From Bacillota bacterium (GTDB taxonomy: Bacteria > Bacillota > Negativicutes > Sporomusales > CTSoil-080), in NCBI GenBank assembly GCA_017889635.1, contig JAGGAC010000021.1, positions 1 to 64,000 of the forward strand: a stretch of DNA of 64,000 nt, given 5' to 3'. The notes under the pieces were generated by a model. It ran no database searches. It saw only the letters and a list, made by a program, of their open reading frames with translations, and had not been told where the DNA came from. Within the stretch, counting starts at the first letter, position 1. Every line of letters begins with the position of its first letter. The position numbers were made by a program, and so were the translations under genes. Below are positions 4,589 to 13,895 of this stretch, in pieces.

Positions 4589-5632
4589 CTATGCTTCAAT
4601 TTTAAAGAGACGGCAAGCATTTCCATTCATGATAAGCTTGCGTTCCTCTTCCGTAATATCCAGTGTTTTAACAAAGTCAACTCCATCTGACATCCAGCCG
4701 TAAAACACAGGAAACGAACTACCAAACAAGATATGGTCAGCCCCGCAAACTTTAATCGCACACTCTACTTCTTCTTTTCCCCAGGAAGCCGGATGAGTCA
4801 TATCAAAGAAAATATTATTTTGCAAATACCCAGAAATTTTTTCTGCCTCAGCAGTATTCAAACGTAACATGGCCTCTTTCTTTTTTGTCTTGTGAGGGGT
4901 AAGCAAGTGATAATTAGCAAACCAGTTGCCACCAAACATCGTATGAATAAATTTTAGGTTCGGAAATTCTTCAAATATGCCACTGAATAATTCGCGTCCT
5001 ACAGCAGTTGCCTGGTCGATAATACGTCCAAGTTCACGGCGCAAATTCGTATATTCATAGATAGATTGCCAGTATACCGGTAACGGGGTATGATGCACAA
5101 CAACCGGTACATTCACTTCGTTAAGAACTTTTAAATAAGGTTTAAAAGCTTCGTCATCCAGATAAAGCTGGCCGTAATGGCAAGCCAGTTGAACACCGAC
5201 CATGCCAAGATCCTTTATACAACGTTCAAGTTCATAAAGATTTTCTTTGCCTCCCCAAGGAGGAAGAACCGCATTTGCATAGAGACGTCCGCCAGACTTT
5301 TTGCACATTTCTGCCGCATTGTCATTTACAATTTTACAAGTTTCAAGTCTCAGCCACTCCTGCCAAACCGGTACGCGAAGTATCCCCTTATCAACACCAG
5401 CATCATCCATCGCCTGAAGTTTAGCCTCAAGCGAATAATCACCATCAACATAGTTAAGGTTCTGATACCCTTTTGGTTTTTCGAGAATAAGCTGACGTTT
5501 GCCGCTTTCCACTGTTCCTAAAGATGCGATCTCGCCAAATGAACGTGGAGCTGTACTCAAAAATCCATCTAGTACTTTCTCATTCGTAAACAAGTCTTCT
5601 GGAAGATGATGCATATTAATATCGATAATCAT
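4589..5632 (-). CDS. Amidohydrolase-2 family (ACMSD-like TIM-barrel) protein
   Basis: 347-residue metal-dependent hydrolase/decarboxylase fold (PF04909), the family of ACMSD, 5-carboxyvanillate and resorcylate decarboxylases. I start it at the ATG at 5632 because GGGGG stands 6 bases upstream; the longer frame to 5689 lacks such a site and would cover the operator region. Visible motifs are IDINMHHLP at the N-terminus, VVVHHTPLP near 180, a third His in FIHTMFGGNW near 230 and FGSSFPV near 300. In canonical members the first is HxH and the last FGSD; here Asn and Ser replace a metal-binding His and the catalytic Asp, so the activity may be changed. Expected role: decarboxylation or hydrolysis of an aromatic or cyclic acid. 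Confidence 0.8.
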   Translation of the reverse strand: MIIDINMHHLPEDLFTNEKVLDGFLSTAPRSFGEIASLGTVESGKRQLILEKPKGYQNLNYVDGDYSLEAKLQAMDDAGVDKGILRVPVWQEWLRLETCKIVNDNAAEMCKKSGGRLYANAVLPPWGGKENLYELERCIKDLGMVGVQLACHYGQLYLDDEAFKPYLKVLNEVNVPVVVHHTPLPVYWQSIYEYTNLRRELGRIIDQATAVGRELFSGIFEEFPNLKFIHTMFGGNWFANYHLLTPHKTKKKEAMLRLNTAEAEKISGYLQNNIFFDMTHPASWGKEEVECAIKVCGADHILFGSSFPVFYGWMSDGVDFVKTLDITEEERKLIMNGNACRLFKIEA

Positions 5633-5671
5633 CAAATAACCCCCTAATTGATTTTGTCTCATGATCACGAA

Positions 5672-5724
5672 ATATAGTTGCGTTAACAACTATATAATAG
5701 CATCATTTAGTTGCGTTCGCAACT
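5672..5724 (-). promoter_or_regulatory. Promoter with two MarR-type palindromic operators (amidohydrolase gene)
   Basis: On the minus strand a -35 TTGCGA (5717-5722) and a -10 TATTAT (5694-5699) are 17 bases apart. Two palindromes sharing AGTTGCG overlap them: AGTTGCGTTCGCAACT at 5709-5724 covers the -35, and TATAGTTG-N6-CAACTATA at 5673-5694 abuts the -10 and start point. This is a repressor-type layout. The rest of the 5633-5962 gap holds the upstream region of folD with no other clear site. Confidence 0.65.
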
Positions 5725-5962
5725 TTTTTTTAAAAAAATATATCTCATTTCAAAATAGCATGGCAAAGGCGCTTACACCTTGAGGCAGGTGAAATAAATA
5801 GTCGAATACACAACTTACACAGTCAAATCTATGCGTTGTATCGCTTCCCACATTTTTTTATCAATAGTTAGATATTTCCGCAATAAAAGAGGGTTTTTGC
5901 TTTACAAGAAAAATTAGTATAGACAGCGCATTTGTTATAACCGCTTTGAAGGAGATGATTAA

Positions 5963-6826
5963 GTGGCCAACCTGCTTGACGGCAAAAAAATTGCCGCTGA
6001 AATTCGCGAAGAAATAAAATCCGCAGTCGCCGTCCTGAAAACCCAAAACATTACCCCAAAACTCTCGGTTGTACTTATTGGCAGCGATCCGGCGTCAGTA
6101 GTATATGCCAAAGCCAAAGAAAAAGCGTGCGCCAACGTTGGTATGGATTATGAACTTCACGTCCTGCCGGAAACAACACCGGAAGACAAGACAATTGCCC
6201 TTATTGAAAAACTCAATACCGACAATAATGTTCATGGCATTCTTATCGAACTGCCCTTGCCGAAAGCGTTAAACAAAGAAAAAATCATGGCAGCCGTTTC
6301 GCCGCTTAAAGATGTAGATGGCGTACACCCCATTAACCGTGGCTACATCCTTAGCAATAGCAACGGCCTGTTTCCTGCTACTCCTCAAAGCTGCATCGAA
6401 ATATTATTGCGCCATAACATAGATCTTAAAGGTAAGGAAGTCGTCCTCGTAGGACGTGGCGACACGATCGGCAAACCCCTTGTTTTTATGCTTCTAAATC
6501 AAGACGCCACCGTTACCGTCTGCCACACCAAAACCACAAATCTCTCAGCTCATACCAGACAAGCCGATATTGTCATTGCCGCCGCCGGCAAAGCAAAAAT
6601 GATAACTGCGGACATGCTTAAACCAGGTGCTATCGTGGTCGACGCCGGCATTAACCAAAGCGAAGACGGCATCTGCGGCGATGTGGACTTCAAAGCAGCA
6701 GAAAAAGTGGCCGGAGCTATCTCGCCTGTCCCTGGCGGCGTTGGCAGCTTAACCACCGTTCTAATTCAAAGAAATGTGTTAAAAGCAATTGCCTTGCAAA
6801 AAAGGACTAACGGAGGCAACAAGTGA
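5963..6826 (+). CDS. folD: FolD-type methylene-THF dehydrogenase / methenyl-THF cyclohydrolase
   Basis: 287 residues, the normal FolD length, starting at GTG with AAGGAG upstream. FolD oxidises 5,10-methylene-THF to methenyl-THF and hydrolyses that to 10-formyl-THF in the cytoplasm. Seen: the catalytic Tyr48/Lys52 pair in YAKAK, KDVDGVHP near 116-123, the nucleotide loop VVLVGRGDTIGKP near 160-172 and PVPGGVGSLT near the C-terminus. The usual GILVQLPLP is GILIELPLP here, so Glu96 replaces the Gln known to matter for cyclohydrolase activity; GRGDTIGKP and GGVGSLT also differ from GRSxIVGxP and GGVGPMT. The gene overlaps fchA by 4 bases, suggesting that FchA supplies the cyclohydrolase step. 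Confidence 0.93.
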   Translation: MANLLDGKKIAAEIREEIKSAVAVLKTQNITPKLSVVLIGSDPASVVYAKAKEKACANVGMDYELHVLPETTPEDKTIALIEKLNTDNNVHGILIELPLPKALNKEKIMAAVSPLKDVDGVHPINRGYILSNSNGLFPATPQSCIEILLRHNIDLKGKEVVLVGRGDTIGKPLVFMLLNQDATVTVCHTKTTNLSAHTRQADIVIAAAGKAKMITADMLKPGAIVVDAGINQSEDGICGDVDFKAAEKVAGAISPVPGGVGSLTTVLIQRNVLKAIALQKRTNGGNK

Positions 6827-7452
6827 GTAGTTTTTTTAATAAAAGTTTTCGGGAAATACTTGAAATATCTAGTTCAAATTCGCCCACCCCGGGAGGCGGC
6901 AGCGTTTCAGCCATAGTCTGCTGCTTGGGGGCAGCCATGACAGCGATGGTTGCCAACCTGACAGTTGGGAATGATAAATATAAACCTGTCGAAAAAGAAG
7001 TACAGGCCCTCCTTGACACCACCACTGCTCTCATTAATAAACTCGAAGCCCTGACAGACGCCGACATGGAAGCATTCGACCAGCTGATGGCAGCCTACCG
7101 CTTACCCAAAAACACCGATGAGGAAAAAGCCGCTCGGGCCACCACTCTTCAGCAGGCGCTTAAAAACGCCTGTAACACACCGCTGGAAACCGCCAGAGTA
7201 TGCCTAAGCGTTCTCAAAACAACGGAAAACTTAGCCCCCATCGGCAATAAAATGGCCATCAGCGATGCCGGTGTTGCCGCTGCCATCGCCGAAGCTGCAC
7301 TAACTGGAGTTCTTCTTAGTGTTGATATTAATATCCCGTTGATTAAAGACCAAGCATACGTACATCAGGCCCTAAACGAAAAAGAAGCTCTTTTAGCCAA
7401 GGCCAAAGAAAGCAAAGATAAAACTTTAGCCATCGTCAAAGAGCGAATGTAA
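6823..7452 (+). CDS. fchA: FchA-type cyclodeaminase / methenyl-THF cyclohydrolase
   Basis: 209-residue cyclodeaminase/cyclohydrolase family protein (PF04961), the usual length. It carries the family N-terminus with SPTPGGGSVSAI and LGAAMTAMVANLT near residues 15-50. In purine-fermenting and acetogenic anaerobes FchA hydrolyses methenyl-THF or deaminates formimino-THF. The GTG start overlaps the folD stop codon by 4 bases, so the two are translationally coupled, and a strong bidirectional terminator follows directly. Together with FolD it interconverts methylene-, methenyl- and formyl-THF. Formimino-THF cyclodeaminase activity remains possible, but no formiminotransferase gene is present here. 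Confidence 0.88.
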   Translation: MSSFFNKSFREILEISSSNSPTPGGGSVSAIVCCLGAAMTAMVANLTVGNDKYKPVEKEVQALLDTTTALINKLEALTDADMEAFDQLMAAYRLPKNTDEEKAARATTLQQALKNACNTPLETARVCLSVLKTTENLAPIGNKMAISDAGVAAAIAEAALTGVLLSVDINIPLIKDQAYVHQALNEKEALLAKAKESKDKTLAIVKERM

Positions 7453-7454
7453 AA

Positions 7455-7495
7455 AACCCTCGTTTTGCAAGTATTACGCCTGCAAAACGAGGGTT
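7455..7495. terminator. Bidirectional terminator between fchA and the UroD-family gene
   Basis: A 15-bp perfect stem, AACCCTCGTTTTGCA / TGCAAAACGAGGGTT, with an 11-base loop. It is followed by CATTTTTTT on the plus strand and by a T6 run on the minus strand. It separates two convergent genes. Confidence 0.9.
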
Positions 7496-7538
7496 CATTT
7501 TTTTACCAACAACCTGCTAAAACTGCATTAGTTCCAAC

Positions 7539-8645
7539 CTATTTCCCACTGGCAGCAGCAATCATTGCCTTTACATTCTCAACCTTGGCATTAGGCGGTA
7601 TTGAACAGCCTGACGAAAGAATAAACCCCTGCCCCATATCACGAATTAGCTTAGTGCAGTAATCGTATACCTCATCAGGCGTACCAAGTGTCAGCTTAGT
7701 TGCCGGAACATCTCCCTTGATACACATGTGATCACCCAGCGCCGCTTTTATTTTATAGATGTCAGTAGTGCTGTCTGTTTCGAAAACGCACTTCCCTTTT
7801 GGCAGCGACCTAAAAAAATCAAGATCACGTTCCCAGTTGGCATCAATATGCAAATCAGCTACAGCACCCTCATCGATCACCGTTTCCGCCGTTTGTCTTA
7901 AATATTTCCAGACAAATCGTTCCCATAGCTTTGGTGTAAAAAATTCACTGGCCCCACGCGCAGGAGAGATAAATACAATCGGCGCTTTGGCGTGGCGGAT
8001 TTGGTTTCTTAACGATTCAAGACTTTCCTTTTGGATTACATCCAGTACCGCCTCGACCTTGTCCGGTATCTTATACAAGTCTCTTACGAACTTCGACATT
8101 GAACGCCCGCCGCCAAGATATTCATTAACAGTTATAGTTACGATACGTGCGTACACCATATAGCCTGCATCTTCAAAATTTTTGACCAAATGGGGTGCTT
8201 CGGCTACTTGGCCCATAAGCTCGTCAAGATCAACGCCAAGCCGTTTCGTCACAAACTCACGCATAAACGGGCGCCAGCCCTTGTCTAAAATGGTATCATA
8301 ATCCTCCGTAGTCATCCTTTCCTGTTCATCAAGTTGCCATAGCGCATTATCTGGCAGTTCGCGCCCAGGCAATTTAACTTTCGTCATAAAACTTAACGCA
8401 AATAGCTTACCAGCCGCAAAAGCACTATTTATACCATCAACATCGCCAAGTGCTTTCATTGAATTAAGCATTGTTTGATTAGAAATTTTAAAATCTGAAC
8501 AAAAATCTGCGAGCTTTACCCCCATATGGTTGGCACAAAATGAGTCAGCCATAAGAATTACCGGAGTCCGGTCAGGTTTCTCCAACCGAATAGCCTTCAT
8601 CACCCGTTCTTTACGTTCCCGCAAAAGCTCTTGAGCCTGCTTCAT
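7539..8645 (-). CDS. Uroporphyrinogen decarboxylase-family protein (corrinoid methyltransferase-like)
   Basis: 368-residue UroD/MtaA superfamily TIM-barrel. It begins with the family N-terminus ERKERVMKAIRLEKPDRTPV and an ATG preceded by GGGGGTG. In true UroD the N-terminus carries substrate arginines in a different context. In MtaA/MtbA/CmuA-type enzymes a His-x-Cys pair and a distal Cys bind zinc. Here DLHIDAN near residue 252 has the His but no paired Cys, while the distal Cys in SSGCSIPPNAK near 345 is present, as in many anaerobe UroD-like methyltransferases of unknown substrate. It is convergent with folD-fchA, which fits one-carbon metabolism, but no corrinoid protein is in the window. 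Not a haem gene by context. Confidence 0.8.
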   Translation of the reverse strand: MKQAQELLRERKERVMKAIRLEKPDRTPVILMADSFCANHMGVKLADFCSDFKISNQTMLNSMKALGDVDGINSAFAAGKLFALSFMTKVKLPGRELPDNALWQLDEQERMTTEDYDTILDKGWRPFMREFVTKRLGVDLDELMGQVAEAPHLVKNFEDAGYMVYARIVTITVNEYLGGGRSMSKFVRDLYKIPDKVEAVLDVIQKESLESLRNQIRHAKAPIVFISPARGASEFFTPKLWERFVWKYLRQTAETVIDEGAVADLHIDANWERDLDFFRSLPKGKCVFETDSTTDIYKIKAALGDHMCIKGDVPATKLTLGTPDEVYDYCTKLIRDMGQGFILSSGCSIPPNAKVENVKAMIAAASGK

Positions 8646-9562: not shown

Positions 9563-11302
9563 ATGTACAACTACATTTCAAAAGTCATTCGCTACCTTAA
9601 GGCAAATAGAACCAGTAATAAAACAAATAACATTAACCGGAATGATATTGTTTTATTACCTGATCTGGCAAGAAACCTTGCCAAATTAACAGATCATTTA
9701 AGTTCAATCAATAATATTATCTCCCAATATATTAACCTATACATAATGATTAACAAAAAAAACGATCCTTCTGAATTATTATCCGACATTGAAAACCTGA
9801 CTCAACAAGTTATTAGTAAAGAAATAAACGAAAATATAACCAAAGTCAGAATTGCTTTTGGCCATAGCAGCGATCTTACAATCCGTTATTCTAGTTTTAA
9901 TGACAATAAGAATATAGTTTACGCCTGTTTATATATTGCAAGCTTGGTAGATAGAAGCATGATCAACAATTTGTCATTAGAACTGATAAAATTGGATCAT
10001 CAATGCCAGGATGCGACCAATGGCATAAATGTAGATCAATTAACCAGCTATTTTTCCAGATTGACAGATCTAAAACAAAGCTCCGACTATGAGACGATCT
10101 ACAATAATTTATTATCAGGTAATACTGTGTTCTTAATTAATGGTTACAGCAATTTTTTTATCGTTGCCACAACTTCCTATGTTGGTAGGTCTGTTGAGGA
10201 GCCTACTTCCCAAACTGTAATCAGAGGACCTAAAGAAGGGTTTACAGAAAAATTAATTAACAATATTTTTCTTATTAGAAAAAGAATAAAAAGCAAGGAT
10301 TTACGAGTAGAAAACCTGACTATAGGCAGCGTAACCCAAACTAGAGTAAGCATAATGTATCTTCATAAAACAGCCATGGATGAAATTGTACAGGAAATAA
10401 GAGCCAGGCTTAGCAAAATAAAAATTGACGGTCTGTTGGAAAGTGGGTATATCGAAGAATTAATTAAAGATGACAGATATTCAATATTTCCCACTTTTCT
10501 TAGTTCTGAAAAACCTGATTCCGTGGCTGCAGCATTACTTGAGGGTAAAGTAGCAATTTTAGTCGATGGCACGCCTTATGTATTGACAGCGCCTGCGCTC
10601 ATGGTAGAGTTCCTTCAAGCAAGTGAAGACTACTATCATCACTTTATTATCTCTTCCATGATCCGCTTTACAAGATTTATATCGTTTTTCCTCACCCTTT
10701 TGGTCCCGGCAGTATATGTAGCGGTGACATCATTCCACCAGGAAATAATTCCTACATCGCTGCTTATCAGCATAGCGTCCCAGCGTGAAGGAGTTCCTTT
10801 TCCCGGTTTATTTGAAGCGTTTACCATGGAATTTACATTTGAAATATTAAGAGAGGCCGGTATTCGAATGCCCAGGGCTATAGGACCTGCCATTTCCATA
10901 GTAGGCGCACTAGTTATCGGTCAGGCAGCCGTAGAAGCCGGTATTATATCGGCGGCTATGGTCATCGTTGTTTCAATCACTGCTATATCAAGCTTTGCCG
11001 TACCTAATTATGAAATGTCAAACGCCATTAGGGCAATAAGGTTTGTATTGATGTTTCTGGCAGGAATCTTGGGTCTATATGGGGTATTTATGGGCTTAAT
11101 TATCCTGACGCTTCATTTGTGCAAAATAAAATCACTGGGAATTCCATACATGACACCTATTGCCCCCAAAATAAAAGGTGGCAACAGAGATACCATTTTC
11201 AGATTTCCGCTGTGGAAGCTAAAACTAAAACCGTCTGGCTTCCATGGAACAGATAGAGGAATAGAACAACGCTATCCCATAAGCTCAAATCAACAAAAAT
11301 AA
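9563..11302 (+). CDS. gerAA: Spore germinant receptor subunit A (GerAA/GerBA family)
   Basis: 579-residue A subunit of a GerA-type nutrient receptor of the spore inner membrane. The ATG has CGGAGG 7 bases upstream. Residues 1-350 form the large hydrophilic N-terminal region, including the conserved EEPTSQTVIRGPKEGF near 210-225. About five hydrophobic segments follow between 356 and 536, including the conserved IPTSLLISIASQREGVPFP and RMPRAIGPAISIVGALVIGQ. The N-terminal 100 residues are a longer-than-usual variable region. It is the first gene of an A-C-D-B operon. The germinant (amino acid, sugar or nucleoside) cannot be predicted. Confidence 0.95.
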   Translation: MYNYISKVIRYLKANRTSNKTNNINRNDIVLLPDLARNLAKLTDHLSSINNIISQYINLYIMINKKNDPSELLSDIENLTQQVISKEINENITKVRIAFGHSSDLTIRYSSFNDNKNIVYACLYIASLVDRSMINNLSLELIKLDHQCQDATNGINVDQLTSYFSRLTDLKQSSDYETIYNNLLSGNTVFLINGYSNFFIVATTSYVGRSVEEPTSQTVIRGPKEGFTEKLINNIFLIRKRIKSKDLRVENLTIGSVTQTRVSIMYLHKTAMDEIVQEIRARLSKIKIDGLLESGYIEELIKDDRYSIFPTFLSSEKPDSVAAALLEGKVAILVDGTPYVLTAPALMVEFLQASEDYYHHFIISSMIRFTRFISFFLTLLVPAVYVAVTSFHQEIIPTSLLISIASQREGVPFPGLFEAFTMEFTFEILREAGIRMPRAIGPAISIVGALVIGQAAVEAGIISAAMVIVVSITAISSFAVPNYEMSNAIRAIRFVLMFLAGILGLYGVFMGLIILTLHLCKIKSLGIPYMTPIAPKIKGGNRDTIFRFPLWKLKLKPSGFHGTDRGIEQRYPISSNQQK

Positions 11303-11320
11303 CAGTTAGTCAGGTAACAT

Positions 11321-12514
11321 ATGAACCATAAAATATTATTAGGCATTTTAATTTTACTGTTTCCCGTATTTTTAACCGGCTGCTGGAGCAGCCACGAAGT
11401 CAATACTCTAGCTATTGCTGTATGCATCGGTATTGATAAAACAGAAAACGGATATCTGGTTACCGAGCAAGTTATAAATCCAAAAGCTATAGCCTCTAAA
11501 AGAGCGACAAATGAGTCGCCGGTTGTTTTATATACGGCAGAAGGACAAAGTATTGGTGAAATAGTTCAGAGCCTTACTACACAATCCCCAAGAAGAATAT
11601 ACCATTCGCATTTGCGATTGGTTATCTTCGGGGAGGAGGTTGCAAAAGACGGAATTCAAGATATAATTGATTATTTTGCACGCGAACGCGAATACCGTAC
11701 AGACTTTTATTTTGCAGTAGCCAAAGGCACCACCGCTAAAGAAGTGCTAAGCATTTTAACTCCTTTAGAATCGATACCGGGAATCAGTATGTATTCTTCG
11801 CTGGAGACATCCGAAAGCTTTTGGGCACCAACAAAATCAATCAAAATTATTGAGTTAATAAATTTAATCACTGCGGACGGAAAAAATCTAGTACTTCCTG
11901 GGATTGAGATTTCCGGAGGGACAGTCACACCAAACTCAACAGATATATTGCACCAAAACAACAAACTTAAAAAACCGAAATACACCGGCCTAGGCATATT
12001 TAAAAAGGACAAGCTTATAGGTTGGTTGAATGAGGATGAAAGCAAGGGCTATAATTATATTACTGGTAACGTAAAAAAAACAGTAGGAAATATATACTAT
12101 GATAATAAAGTGAAAATTACAGTTGATGTTGCAAATGTAAAATCTGACATGGAAGCTTATCTGGTAAATGATAAACCAGCTATTGCTATAAATATCGATA
12201 TGACAGGAAAAATTAAAACTGCCGTTGGACCGTTAGATGTTTCCAAGGAAGAAAATAAAAATATTATAAATAAATTATCGGAAGACAGAGTCAAGTATTT
12301 TTGTGATAAGGCAATAGCTAAAGTACGAAAAGAATTTAAAAGCGATATTTTTGGTTTTGGAGAAGCAATCCATAGGGAATACCCGGAACTTTGGGACAAA
12401 ATTAAAGATAACTGGAATGACGAAATGGTAGACCTTCCGGTAAATATTACTGTCAAGTCAAAATTAACTCAACTGGGGCAAATTGCAACACCATTATTTT
12501 TAAAGGAAAAGTAA
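11321..12514 (+). CDS. gerAC: Spore germination lipoprotein subunit C (GerAC family)
   Basis: 397-residue C subunit, a lipoprotein anchored on the outer face of the spore inner membrane. Signal peptide with lipobox LTGC near residue 21, then CWSSHEVN, the family's typical mature start. The family region NESPVVLYTAEGQSIGEIVQ follows near 65-85, and the C-terminal Ger(x)C domain spans about 200-390. It lies 18 bases after gerAA and one base before the small gene that follows, so the operon is tight. C precedes B here, unlike the A-B-C order of Bacillus subtilis gerA. Confidence 0.93.
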   Translation: MNHKILLGILILLFPVFLTGCWSSHEVNTLAIAVCIGIDKTENGYLVTEQVINPKAIASKRATNESPVVLYTAEGQSIGEIVQSLTTQSPRRIYHSHLRLVIFGEEVAKDGIQDIIDYFAREREYRTDFYFAVAKGTTAKEVLSILTPLESIPGISMYSSLETSESFWAPTKSIKIIELINLITADGKNLVLPGIEISGGTVTPNSTDILHQNNKLKKPKYTGLGIFKKDKLIGWLNEDESKGYNYITGNVKKTVGNIYYDNKVKITVDVANVKSDMEAYLVNDKPAIAINIDMTGKIKTAVGPLDVSKEENKNIINKLSEDRVKYFCDKAIAKVRKEFKSDIFGFGEAIHREYPELWDKIKDNWNDEMVDLPVNITVKSKLTQLGQIATPLFLKEK

Positions 12515-12515
12515 A

Positions 12516-12755
12516 ATGGCAGGTGTAGGTATATTAACCGTATTACTATTCGCCACTGTATTAAGCATTATAGAAGTGCCTAAAATGCTGCAGGGCAAGC
12601 TTTATAAAGAGTTGTGGACATTTTCTATATTGACTACTTTAGGTACAGTGCTTGCAATACTGAAAATTCTTGATATCAGCATCCCCAACCCTTCGGATTG
12701 GATTGCCTGGGTGTATTCTCCAGTTAAAGATTTTATGAAAAGTTTATTAAAATGA
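12516..12755 (+). CDS. Small two-helix membrane protein of the ger operon (D-subunit-like)
   Basis: 79-residue protein with two predicted membrane helices (about residues 4-20 and 34-53) and a short amphipathic tail ending SPVKDFMKSLLK. It starts one base after the gerAC stop. Small two-helix 'D' proteins are encoded next to some GerA-type operons, for example GerKD in Bacillus, and modulate germination rate. Calling this one a D subunit rests on size, topology and operon position, not on a recognised motif. Probable site of action: spore inner membrane. Confidence 0.7.
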   Translation: MAGVGILTVLLFATVLSIIEVPKMLQGKLYKELWTFSILTTLGTVLAILKILDISIPNPSDWIAWVYSPVKDFMKSLLK

Positions 12756-12770
12756 GGTTTACCTATTAAT

Positions 12771-13895
12771 ATGAAAATTCCCAAAATTTCAAATCACCAA
12801 CTGTTTTCATTAACGGCATGCAACTCAATCGGAGTAGCCCTTATCGCAATTTCGGCCTTAATGGCAAGTATTGCAAAACAGGATGCTTGGATTTCCGCAC
12901 TAATCACTCCTGTTTTTGGCATGCTTGTGATGCTGATATATTGGTTGCTGGGCAGTAAGTATCCAAACATGTCCTTTGTTGATATAATTAAAACTATATT
13001 GGGAAAATGGTTAGGCTTACTTGTTGGAAGCCTTTATGTATTTTTTTATACTATAATCGGGTGTCATCTTCCCTGGTATATAGGCCAATTTACAACTATT
13101 TCAGCTCTGCCGGAGACTCCCCCCTATATTATCAGCTTATTATTTATGATAGCTGTTGTAATAGCCGAATTATATGGAATAGAAGCAATTGCACGTGCTT
13201 CCGAAATTTTTATAATACTCATATCGGTTCTATTTTTTTTAGCTATGCTTCTTGTTTCACCAAATGCTAAAATAGAGAATTTGAAACCGATATTTGAGCA
13301 TGGCATAACGCCAATCCTAAAGAGCTCAATCTTTTTGGCCTGTTTTACAACCTTTCATTTAATTACCTTGATGGGAATATATCCCTATAATATCGCTAAT
13401 ATATCTGAAGCCAAAAAATCAATTTTAAAAGGTTATTTATTTGGCGGCATCATTATTTTCGTAACAATTATTATGTCACTACTGGTGTTGGGAGAAAATA
13501 TAACTTCTAAAATACAGTATCCTACCTACGTACTTGCTAAAGAAATAAACATTGTTAAAATATTTACACGCCTTGAATTTCTAATTGCTCTTGTATGGAT
13601 TGTTGCCATATTCGTAATCGGCGTATTATTTTTTCATGCGGCTGTAATATCACTTTCAGAGGTGCTTGGTCTAAAAGACCACAGGAGGATAATCATTCCG
13701 CTAGGGCTTATTATGTTAGTGCTGTCAGAGGTTATTCTCCCAGATATTCCATATTACGCAAATTGGATTAATCTTGTATGGATACCTTACAGTATAACGA
13801 TTGGATTAATTATTCCAGTTTTATTGTTGCTGGTCTATTCGGTAAAGAAAAAGATTTTTAAAATTAACAAAGTTAAATCCAAACCATGCTTATGA
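12771..13895 (+). CDS. gerAB: Spore germination permease subunit B (GerAB family)
   Basis: 374-residue integral membrane protein of the APC-superfamily spore-germination permease family, with about ten hydrophobic segments, the usual length. The N-terminus KISNHQLFSLTACNSIGVAL matches the family start, where a glycine-rich first helix forms part of the germinant-binding pocket. It closes the operon 15 bases after the small protein gene. With GerAA and GerAC it makes the receptor that triggers ion release and core rehydration. No terminator is evident between it and anmK. Confidence 0.93.
   Translation: MKIPKISNHQLFSLTACNSIGVALIAISALMASIAKQDAWISALITPVFGMLVMLIYWLLGSKYPNMSFVDIIKTILGKWLGLLVGSLYVFFYTIIGCHLPWYIGQFTTISALPETPPYIISLLFMIAVVIAELYGIEAIARASEIFIILISVLFFLAMLLVSPNAKIENLKPIFEHGITPILKSSIFLACFTTFHLITLMGIYPYNIANISEAKKSILKGYLFGGIIIFVTIIMSLLVLGENITSKIQYPTYVLAKEINIVKIFTRLEFLIALVWIVAIFVIGVLFFHAAVISLSEVLGLKDHRRIIIPLGLIMLVLSEVILPDIPYYANWINLVWIPYSITIGLIIPVLLLLVYSVKKKIFKINKVKSKPCL

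Follow-up and report, generated by a model that had tools for sequence, protein, structure and literature searches.

The FolD protein encoded in the window (the whole stretch of 64,000 nucleotides that was analyzed) is probably a dehydrogenase that leaves cyclohydrolysis to FchA, the product of the next gene in a two-gene operon that is likely translationally coupled. This division of labor had been proposed in an earlier sequence-only reading, and it now appears well supported by the co-occurrence of the two genes, their arrangement in an operon, the concerted disappearance of Lys and Glu, and published Gln mutants. The same reading implied a peculiarity of the active-site Glu, which does not hold: Glu is the hallmark of a widespread clade, and a monofunctional FolD combined with FchA is an established arrangement. 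The principle is already known, and the Lys-Glu variant of it seems plausible on broad comparative data. The folD-fchA pairing recurs in many anaerobes and looks like a real, understandable division of labor. New to us are a widespread clade of Lys-Glu FolDs associated with fchA and the way in which Lys and Glu share the same fate inside it; among the matches listed in a literature search, no paper dealt with a Glu98 FolD clade. The locus comprises the following features:

5950..5954, + strand: Shine-Dalgarno-like AGGAG before the folD GTG (read from the sequence)
5963..6826, + strand: folD, methylene-THF dehydrogenase, 287 aa, GTG start, Glu96 variant with Lys52 (ORF list, Pfam, alignment)
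6104..6118, + strand: YxxxK codons 48-52, Tyr48...Lys52 corresponding to E. coli Tyr50...Lys54, intact (sequence, alignment)
6248..6250, + strand: codon 96, GAA, Glu at the E. coli Gln98 position (sequence, alignment)
6452..6478, + strand: GRGDTIGKP (residue 164; GRSNIVGKP in ordinary FolDs), hallmark of the Glu clade (motif comparison)
6734..6754, + strand: GGVGSLT (residue 258; GGVGPMT or similar in ordinary FolDs), hallmark of the Glu clade (motif comparison)
6812..6816, + strand: Shine-Dalgarno-like GGAGG for fchA, within the folD 3' end (read from the sequence)
6823..7452, + strand: fchA, methenyl-THF cyclohydrolase-like protein, 209 aa, GTG start, FTCD_C domain (ORF list, Pfam PF04961, 4.3e-65)
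6823..6826, + strand: GTGA overlap, fchA start and folD stop (sequence)
7454..7496, no strand assigned: hairpin of 18 pairs with T-runs, separating fchA from the convergent gene (terminator scan, called on the - strand; sequence)

The four-base overlap of folD and fchA, which the sequence-only reading had pointed out, is indeed present as GTGA at 6823-6826. Translational coupling of both genes is likely, since AGGAG precedes folD and GGAGG lies inside the folD 3' end before fchA. The hairpin at 7454-7496 is likely a terminator. In the region around folD and fchA, neither terminator-like nor promoter-like sites outnumbered those expected by chance. An amidohydrolase gene (4589-5689, - strand; Pfam/NCBIfam) is divergent from folD, and a gene for a URO-D/MtaA-like methyltransferase (7539-8645, - strand; Pfam/NCBIfam) is convergent with fchA.

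The window FolD contains two full-length Pfam domains, PF00763 (THF_DHG_CYH, residues 5-119) and PF02882 (THF_DHG_CYH_C, residues 122-277), both far over the cut-off. It shares this organization with the bifunctional FolD/MTHFD enzymes (E. coli FolD, DC domain of human MTHFD1), as well as the Tyr-xxx-Lys motif, the DVDG motif and the PVPGGVG loop. When aligned with E. coli FolD (1b0a), Tyr50, Lys54 and Gln98 correspond to residues 48, 52 and 96, respectively. The catalytic Lys is thus present (Lys52) and the DVDG motif is intact, whereas the Gln that positions this Lys (Gln98 in E. coli, Gln100 in human) is missing and Glu96 stands instead. Further differences from the bifunctional enzymes are GRGDTIGKP, GGVGSLT and the overlap of folD by a cyclohydrolase-like gene. 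The Glu in place of the LVQLPLP Gln and the two deviating motifs had been noticed from the letters alone, and the comparison agrees: codon 96 is GAA and aligns with E. coli Gln98, and ordinary FolDs have GRSNIVGKP and GGVGPMT. Codon 96 is unlikely to be a sequencing mistake or a mutation of this strain alone; both were ruled out, as Glu is common to two genomes of the same family and to the clade described below. The protein search found a single FolD in the genome of the window and no second, Gln-type FolD; two other PF02882 stretches are weak, one being sub-threshold and the other exceeding the threshold only together with a neighboring frame. The NCBIfam FolD models scored below their cut-offs (top model PRK14191, 322 of 423 bits): none of the 25 best of 31 matching models reached its own cut-off, and all 25 bear the bifunctional name. 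FolD genes of the window type thus tend toward a bifunctional label.

Among 60 related genomes (that of the window and 59 others), FolD was readable in 57, the exceptions being G016, G020 and G058. Glu with Lys kept was found only in the family of the window (three genomes), each time with folD followed by fchA. Most other relatives have an ordinary FolD with Lys and Gln, or one that has lost both (Leu, Ala or Met at position 54, Met or Phe at position 98). At a threshold of 1e-15, an FchA-like gene is present in all 26 relatives without a Gln-type FolD (10 of them close Sporomusa-like kin) versus 9 of the 28 with a Gln-type FolD only (Fisher 4e-8, relatedness ignored). Three relatives with one FolD of each type were kept outside this test; all three carry an FchA-like gene. 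Gln is kept in all 19 relatives without an FchA-like gene at this threshold, although eight of these do give a weaker hit (1e-15 to 1e-4); 18 read Lys and Gln, and in the remaining one (G045) the Lys lies in another frame. One genome of the same order (G013, locus L062) has the reverse loss, with Gln98 kept, a Gln in the place of Lys54 and FchA-like genes present; it was counted among the nine Gln-only genomes with FchA.

All three deviations of the window FolD (Glu, GRGDTIGKP and GGVGSLT) are common to one clade, found in Bacillota, Desulfarculaceae and others. A strict scan for the Glu motif in 84,980 species genomes gave 86 stretches, from Desulfarculaceae, Adiutrix, Heliobacteriaceae, Peptococcaceae, Desulfotomaculum, Methylomirabilis and others, two of which (L073, L098) contain no recognizable FolD. 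These 86 understate the clade and are biased toward Glu, because the strict motif misses the common HGIM form. Glu together with GRG[DE] occurs in 62 FolDs from the scan and the relatives, with the Lys kept in 61 and unreadable in one; fchA lies directly downstream in 50 of these, and 8 of the other 12 end at most 350 bases from an edge. The clade was defined by at least 50% identity to the window FolD or by GRG[DE], many members having been found by the Glu search; L221, a Gln row with 50.7% identity and ordinary motifs, was set aside. So defined, it holds 94 different sequences, of which 89 have Lys-Glu, three Leu-Met and two Leu-Leu, and fchA is directly downstream in 77 of the 85 for which 700 bases or more were available. 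Clade members L193, L194 (L262, L263) and L254 show GWG or GCG motifs, and their folD is not followed by fchA; their genomes carry an FchA-like gene elsewhere. Genes near the clade loci (lower bounds of 94, since flanks vary; clusters named by a family search with one member each) include xseA-like genes (25), NADPH-dependent glutamate synthase-like genes (17), ispA-like genes (11) and nusB-like genes (6). Since some of these neighbors are usual beside a housekeeping folD, fchA was probably inserted behind the housekeeping folD at such loci.

When genomes are sampled without regard to Glu, the presence of FchA goes along with the loss of Gln. A similarity sample of the Heliobacterium phylum gave a close FolD in 35 of 249 genomes (30 Lys-Glu, three Leu-Met, two Leu-Leu), with fchA downstream in 30. 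An FchA-like gene is present in 34 of these 35 genomes versus 103 of the 214 others, and in the sole clade genome without one, folD lies 53 bases from a contig end. In the same sample, an FchA-like gene was found in 37 of 108 genomes with the Gln motif only versus 98 of 139 without the Gln motif, the latter including genomes whose FolD went unread. In the similarity sample of the Desulfocarbo phylum, 23 of 247 genomes gave close matches: 17 clade members, all with Glu and all with fchA downstream, and six ordinary Gln FolDs, none of which has fchA beside it.

A FolD tree in which both residues were masked (128 of 200 rows, after thinning and removal of six long rows) supports the core clade with an SH-aLRT of 99, compared with 84 in a first tree of 135 rows that included long odd rows; L141 belongs to the 94 but is placed outside the core by the second tree. 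The five Leu-Leu and Leu-Met rows form one branch (100) nested inside the core clade. The well-supported branches force at least four changes (gains or losses) of the Glu label, which means that Glu either arose more than once or disappeared repeatedly. A phylogenetically paired test yielded two usable pairs (four with weak branches), too few for significance, and fchA adjacency did not differ within these pairs. Independent events are few, which weakens the comparative case. In Ligilactobacillus (26 genomes), Lys and Gln are kept in all 21 genomes without FTCD_C; of the five with FTCD_C, three have only a FolD without both residues, and two have an ordinary FolD with Glu in addition to such a FolD. 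This Gln-to-Glu change is probably one event, as both Glu FolDs stand together on the tree. The same five genomes contain an fchA-folD pair (loci L157, L158, L247-L251) whose FolD lacks both residues.

The sequence-only reading had also raised the question of whether Glu is common in genomes lacking fchA. Inside the clade it is not, as the 34 of 35 genomes above indicate; beyond the core, no FTCD_C was found in 12 of 22 Glu-bearing genomes, by which a strict confinement of Glu to FchA genomes is ruled out. The FTCD_C search covered all 24 of these Glu records except L114 and L137; L128 and L141, which are counted among the 22, also meet the loose clade rule. Four of the 12 have a second FolD (G074, G075, G079, G081). 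In the remaining eight, small assemblies of 0.7-1.5 Mb, the Glu FolD is the only one: two Caldisericum (Lys changed to Ile), two archaea of the Argoarchaeum/GoM-Arc1 type, three Yanofskybacteria and one more archaeon.

With regard to mechanism, the window FolD would use NAD(P) to oxidize methylene-THF, yielding methenyl-THF, or catalyze the reverse reaction, and FchA would interconvert methenyl-THF and 10-formyl-THF. Glu96 takes the place of the Gln by which the catalytic Lys is positioned and activated; its carboxylate could pair with Lys52 and keep it protonated in an ion pair, so that Lys52 would be unavailable as a base for cyclohydrolysis, with hydride transfer continuing. The sequence, the gene overlap, the association of Glu, Lys and fchA across the clade and the co-occurrence counts are observations, whereas the translational coupling, both activities, the ion pair and the direction of flux are inferred. 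The Lys serves the cyclohydrolase as general acid/base and is positioned by the Gln (PMC3338484; for the Gln also PMC3368264). In E. coli, Q98H retains about 8% of the dehydrogenase and an estimated 1% or so of the cyclohydrolase activity, and K54N about 19% of the dehydrogenase with undetectable cyclohydrolase (PMC5688156). PMC10132981 gives an activity comparable to wild type for human Q100A, the inhibition assay described there using NADP+. The dehydrogenase of the window FolD could also suffer, because Lys together with Gln prepares the dehydrogenase step as well (PMC3368264). Among the matches listed, we found no activity reported for a natural Gln-to-Glu FolD. The active site may not be dead, because Lys52 is kept in 89 of the 94 clade members though other FchA-associated FolDs lose this Lys. 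Sundararajan and MacKenzie (2002) reportedly described human Gln100 mutants without cyclohydrolase but with dehydrogenase activity.

Several other explanations have to be weighed against this division of labor, and the first concerns the partner protein. The window FchA matches FTCD_C (PF04961) over residues 9-187 of 209 aa with 219 bits. It might be a cyclodeaminase and not a methenyl-THF cyclohydrolase, in which case it would say nothing about FolD: cyclodeaminases also fall within FTCD_C, and the protein scores 209 bits with the NCBIfam FchA equivalog NF045657, under its cut-off of 275. We consider this highly improbable: the top solved structure is 7vg4, a methenyl-THF cyclohydrolase, with a near full-length match of 152 bits versus 96 for FTCD and 78 for a cyclodeaminase, such genes lie directly behind folD across phyla, and FolD covaries with the FchA encoded next to it (78 pairs, r 0.83, a value raised by common descent; top of 1000 permutations 0.11). 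The FchAs beside Glu-type FolDs are not one clade; this was ruled out by a tree of 83 of 111 rows (Glu-adjacent rows thinned to 46 of 74), which needs five changes, at least three of them forced by well-supported branches. It is also improbable, if less so, that Glu96 mainly tunes cofactor choice, direction or folate affinity, with any effect on the cyclohydrolase being incidental. The Rossmann motif GRG[DE]T[VI]G[KR]P does differ along with Glu in the clade, and NADPH-dependent glutamate synthase-like genes lie upstream at 17 of 94 clade loci, but both changes are separable because some FolDs combine Glu with a GRS motif (Ligilactobacillus, Caldisericum, Bipolaricaulota). Moreover, neither Tyr50 nor Lys54 contacts the cofactor, and it is this Lys that the Gln positions (PMC3338484).

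A FolD that is still bifunctional, with a Lys-Glu pair that supports the cyclohydrolase and an FchA that only adds capacity for heavy one-carbon flux, would fit the retention of both residues together in 89 of 94 clade members. The combination of a Gln FolD with an FchA-like gene, in 9 of 28 relatives and 37 of 108 genomes of the larger sample, likewise counts against the division of labor. The eight small assemblies keep this rival alive, and in the archaeal ones (G066, G067, G080) neither FchA nor Fhs was found in addition to the Glu FolD; the Fhs search covered the archaeal assemblies and not the three Yanofskybacteria. These archaea prove little, however, because archaea may make purines without 10-formyl-THF. 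We regard a bifunctional enzyme as unlikely, given the FchA-like gene in nearly all sampled clade genomes, the fchA downstream of folD in four of five members of the sub-branch without both residues, and the loss of about 99% of cyclohydrolase activity in E. coli Q98H (PMC5688156). Somewhat less doubtful, if still tentative, is that the Lys-Glu pair is a second, selected active-site state and not decay, in which a closed Glu-Lys ion pair would exclude water and methenyl-THF would be passed unhydrolyzed to FchA, perhaps inside a FolD-FchA complex, with the methylene-/formyl-THF flux controllable via the FchA level. In its favor, Lys and Glu are either kept together (89) or lost together (5) among the 94 sequences; against it, four Caldisericota FolDs outside the clade have Glu without Lys, and many clade rows stem from the Glu search.

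Compared with known systems, the predicted division of labor follows the same principle as in Clostridium perfringens, whose FolD is reportedly monofunctional with the cyclohydrolase provided by FchA (Aluri et al. 2016). Clostridium FolDs are reported to have lost the Lys and kept the Gln, which is the reverse of the window FolD. The FchA-associated FolDs of types AF, LM, MM and LF resemble the window FolD in the loss of Gln and in the presence of an FchA-like gene in the genome, which is adjacent in type AF as in the window. They have lost the Lys too, however, and form separate tree branches, and where both genes are adjacent their order is fchA-folD, unlike the folD-fchA order of the window.

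If residue 98 and Lys54 together report the ability to carry out the second step, sequence data could serve to correct models of metabolism in anaerobes and acetogens, and pathway builders would know when FchA must accompany FolD. The clade, its sub-branch with the double loss and the separate Gln-to-Glu change in Ligilactobacillus provide natural mutants for studying how one site serves two reactions.

The genome of the window encodes one Fhs, and in the vicinity of its fhs gene are genes whose products are a corrinoid protein, a protein like methyl-THF methyltransferases and one like corrinoid activators. These neighbors and the URO-D/MtaA-like gene after fchA fit catabolic one-carbon traffic. 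Other contigs of the same genome contain two more FTCD_C proteins or pieces, at L063 1558-2205 (- strand) and L064 2-445 (+ strand). By eye, one adjoins a gene whose end resembles an S1 domain, and the other is cut by the contig start with a formate-dehydrogenase-like gene farther along. Elsewhere in the window, three successive genes at 9563-13895 (+ strand) resemble, by eye, a GerA-type spore germination operon.
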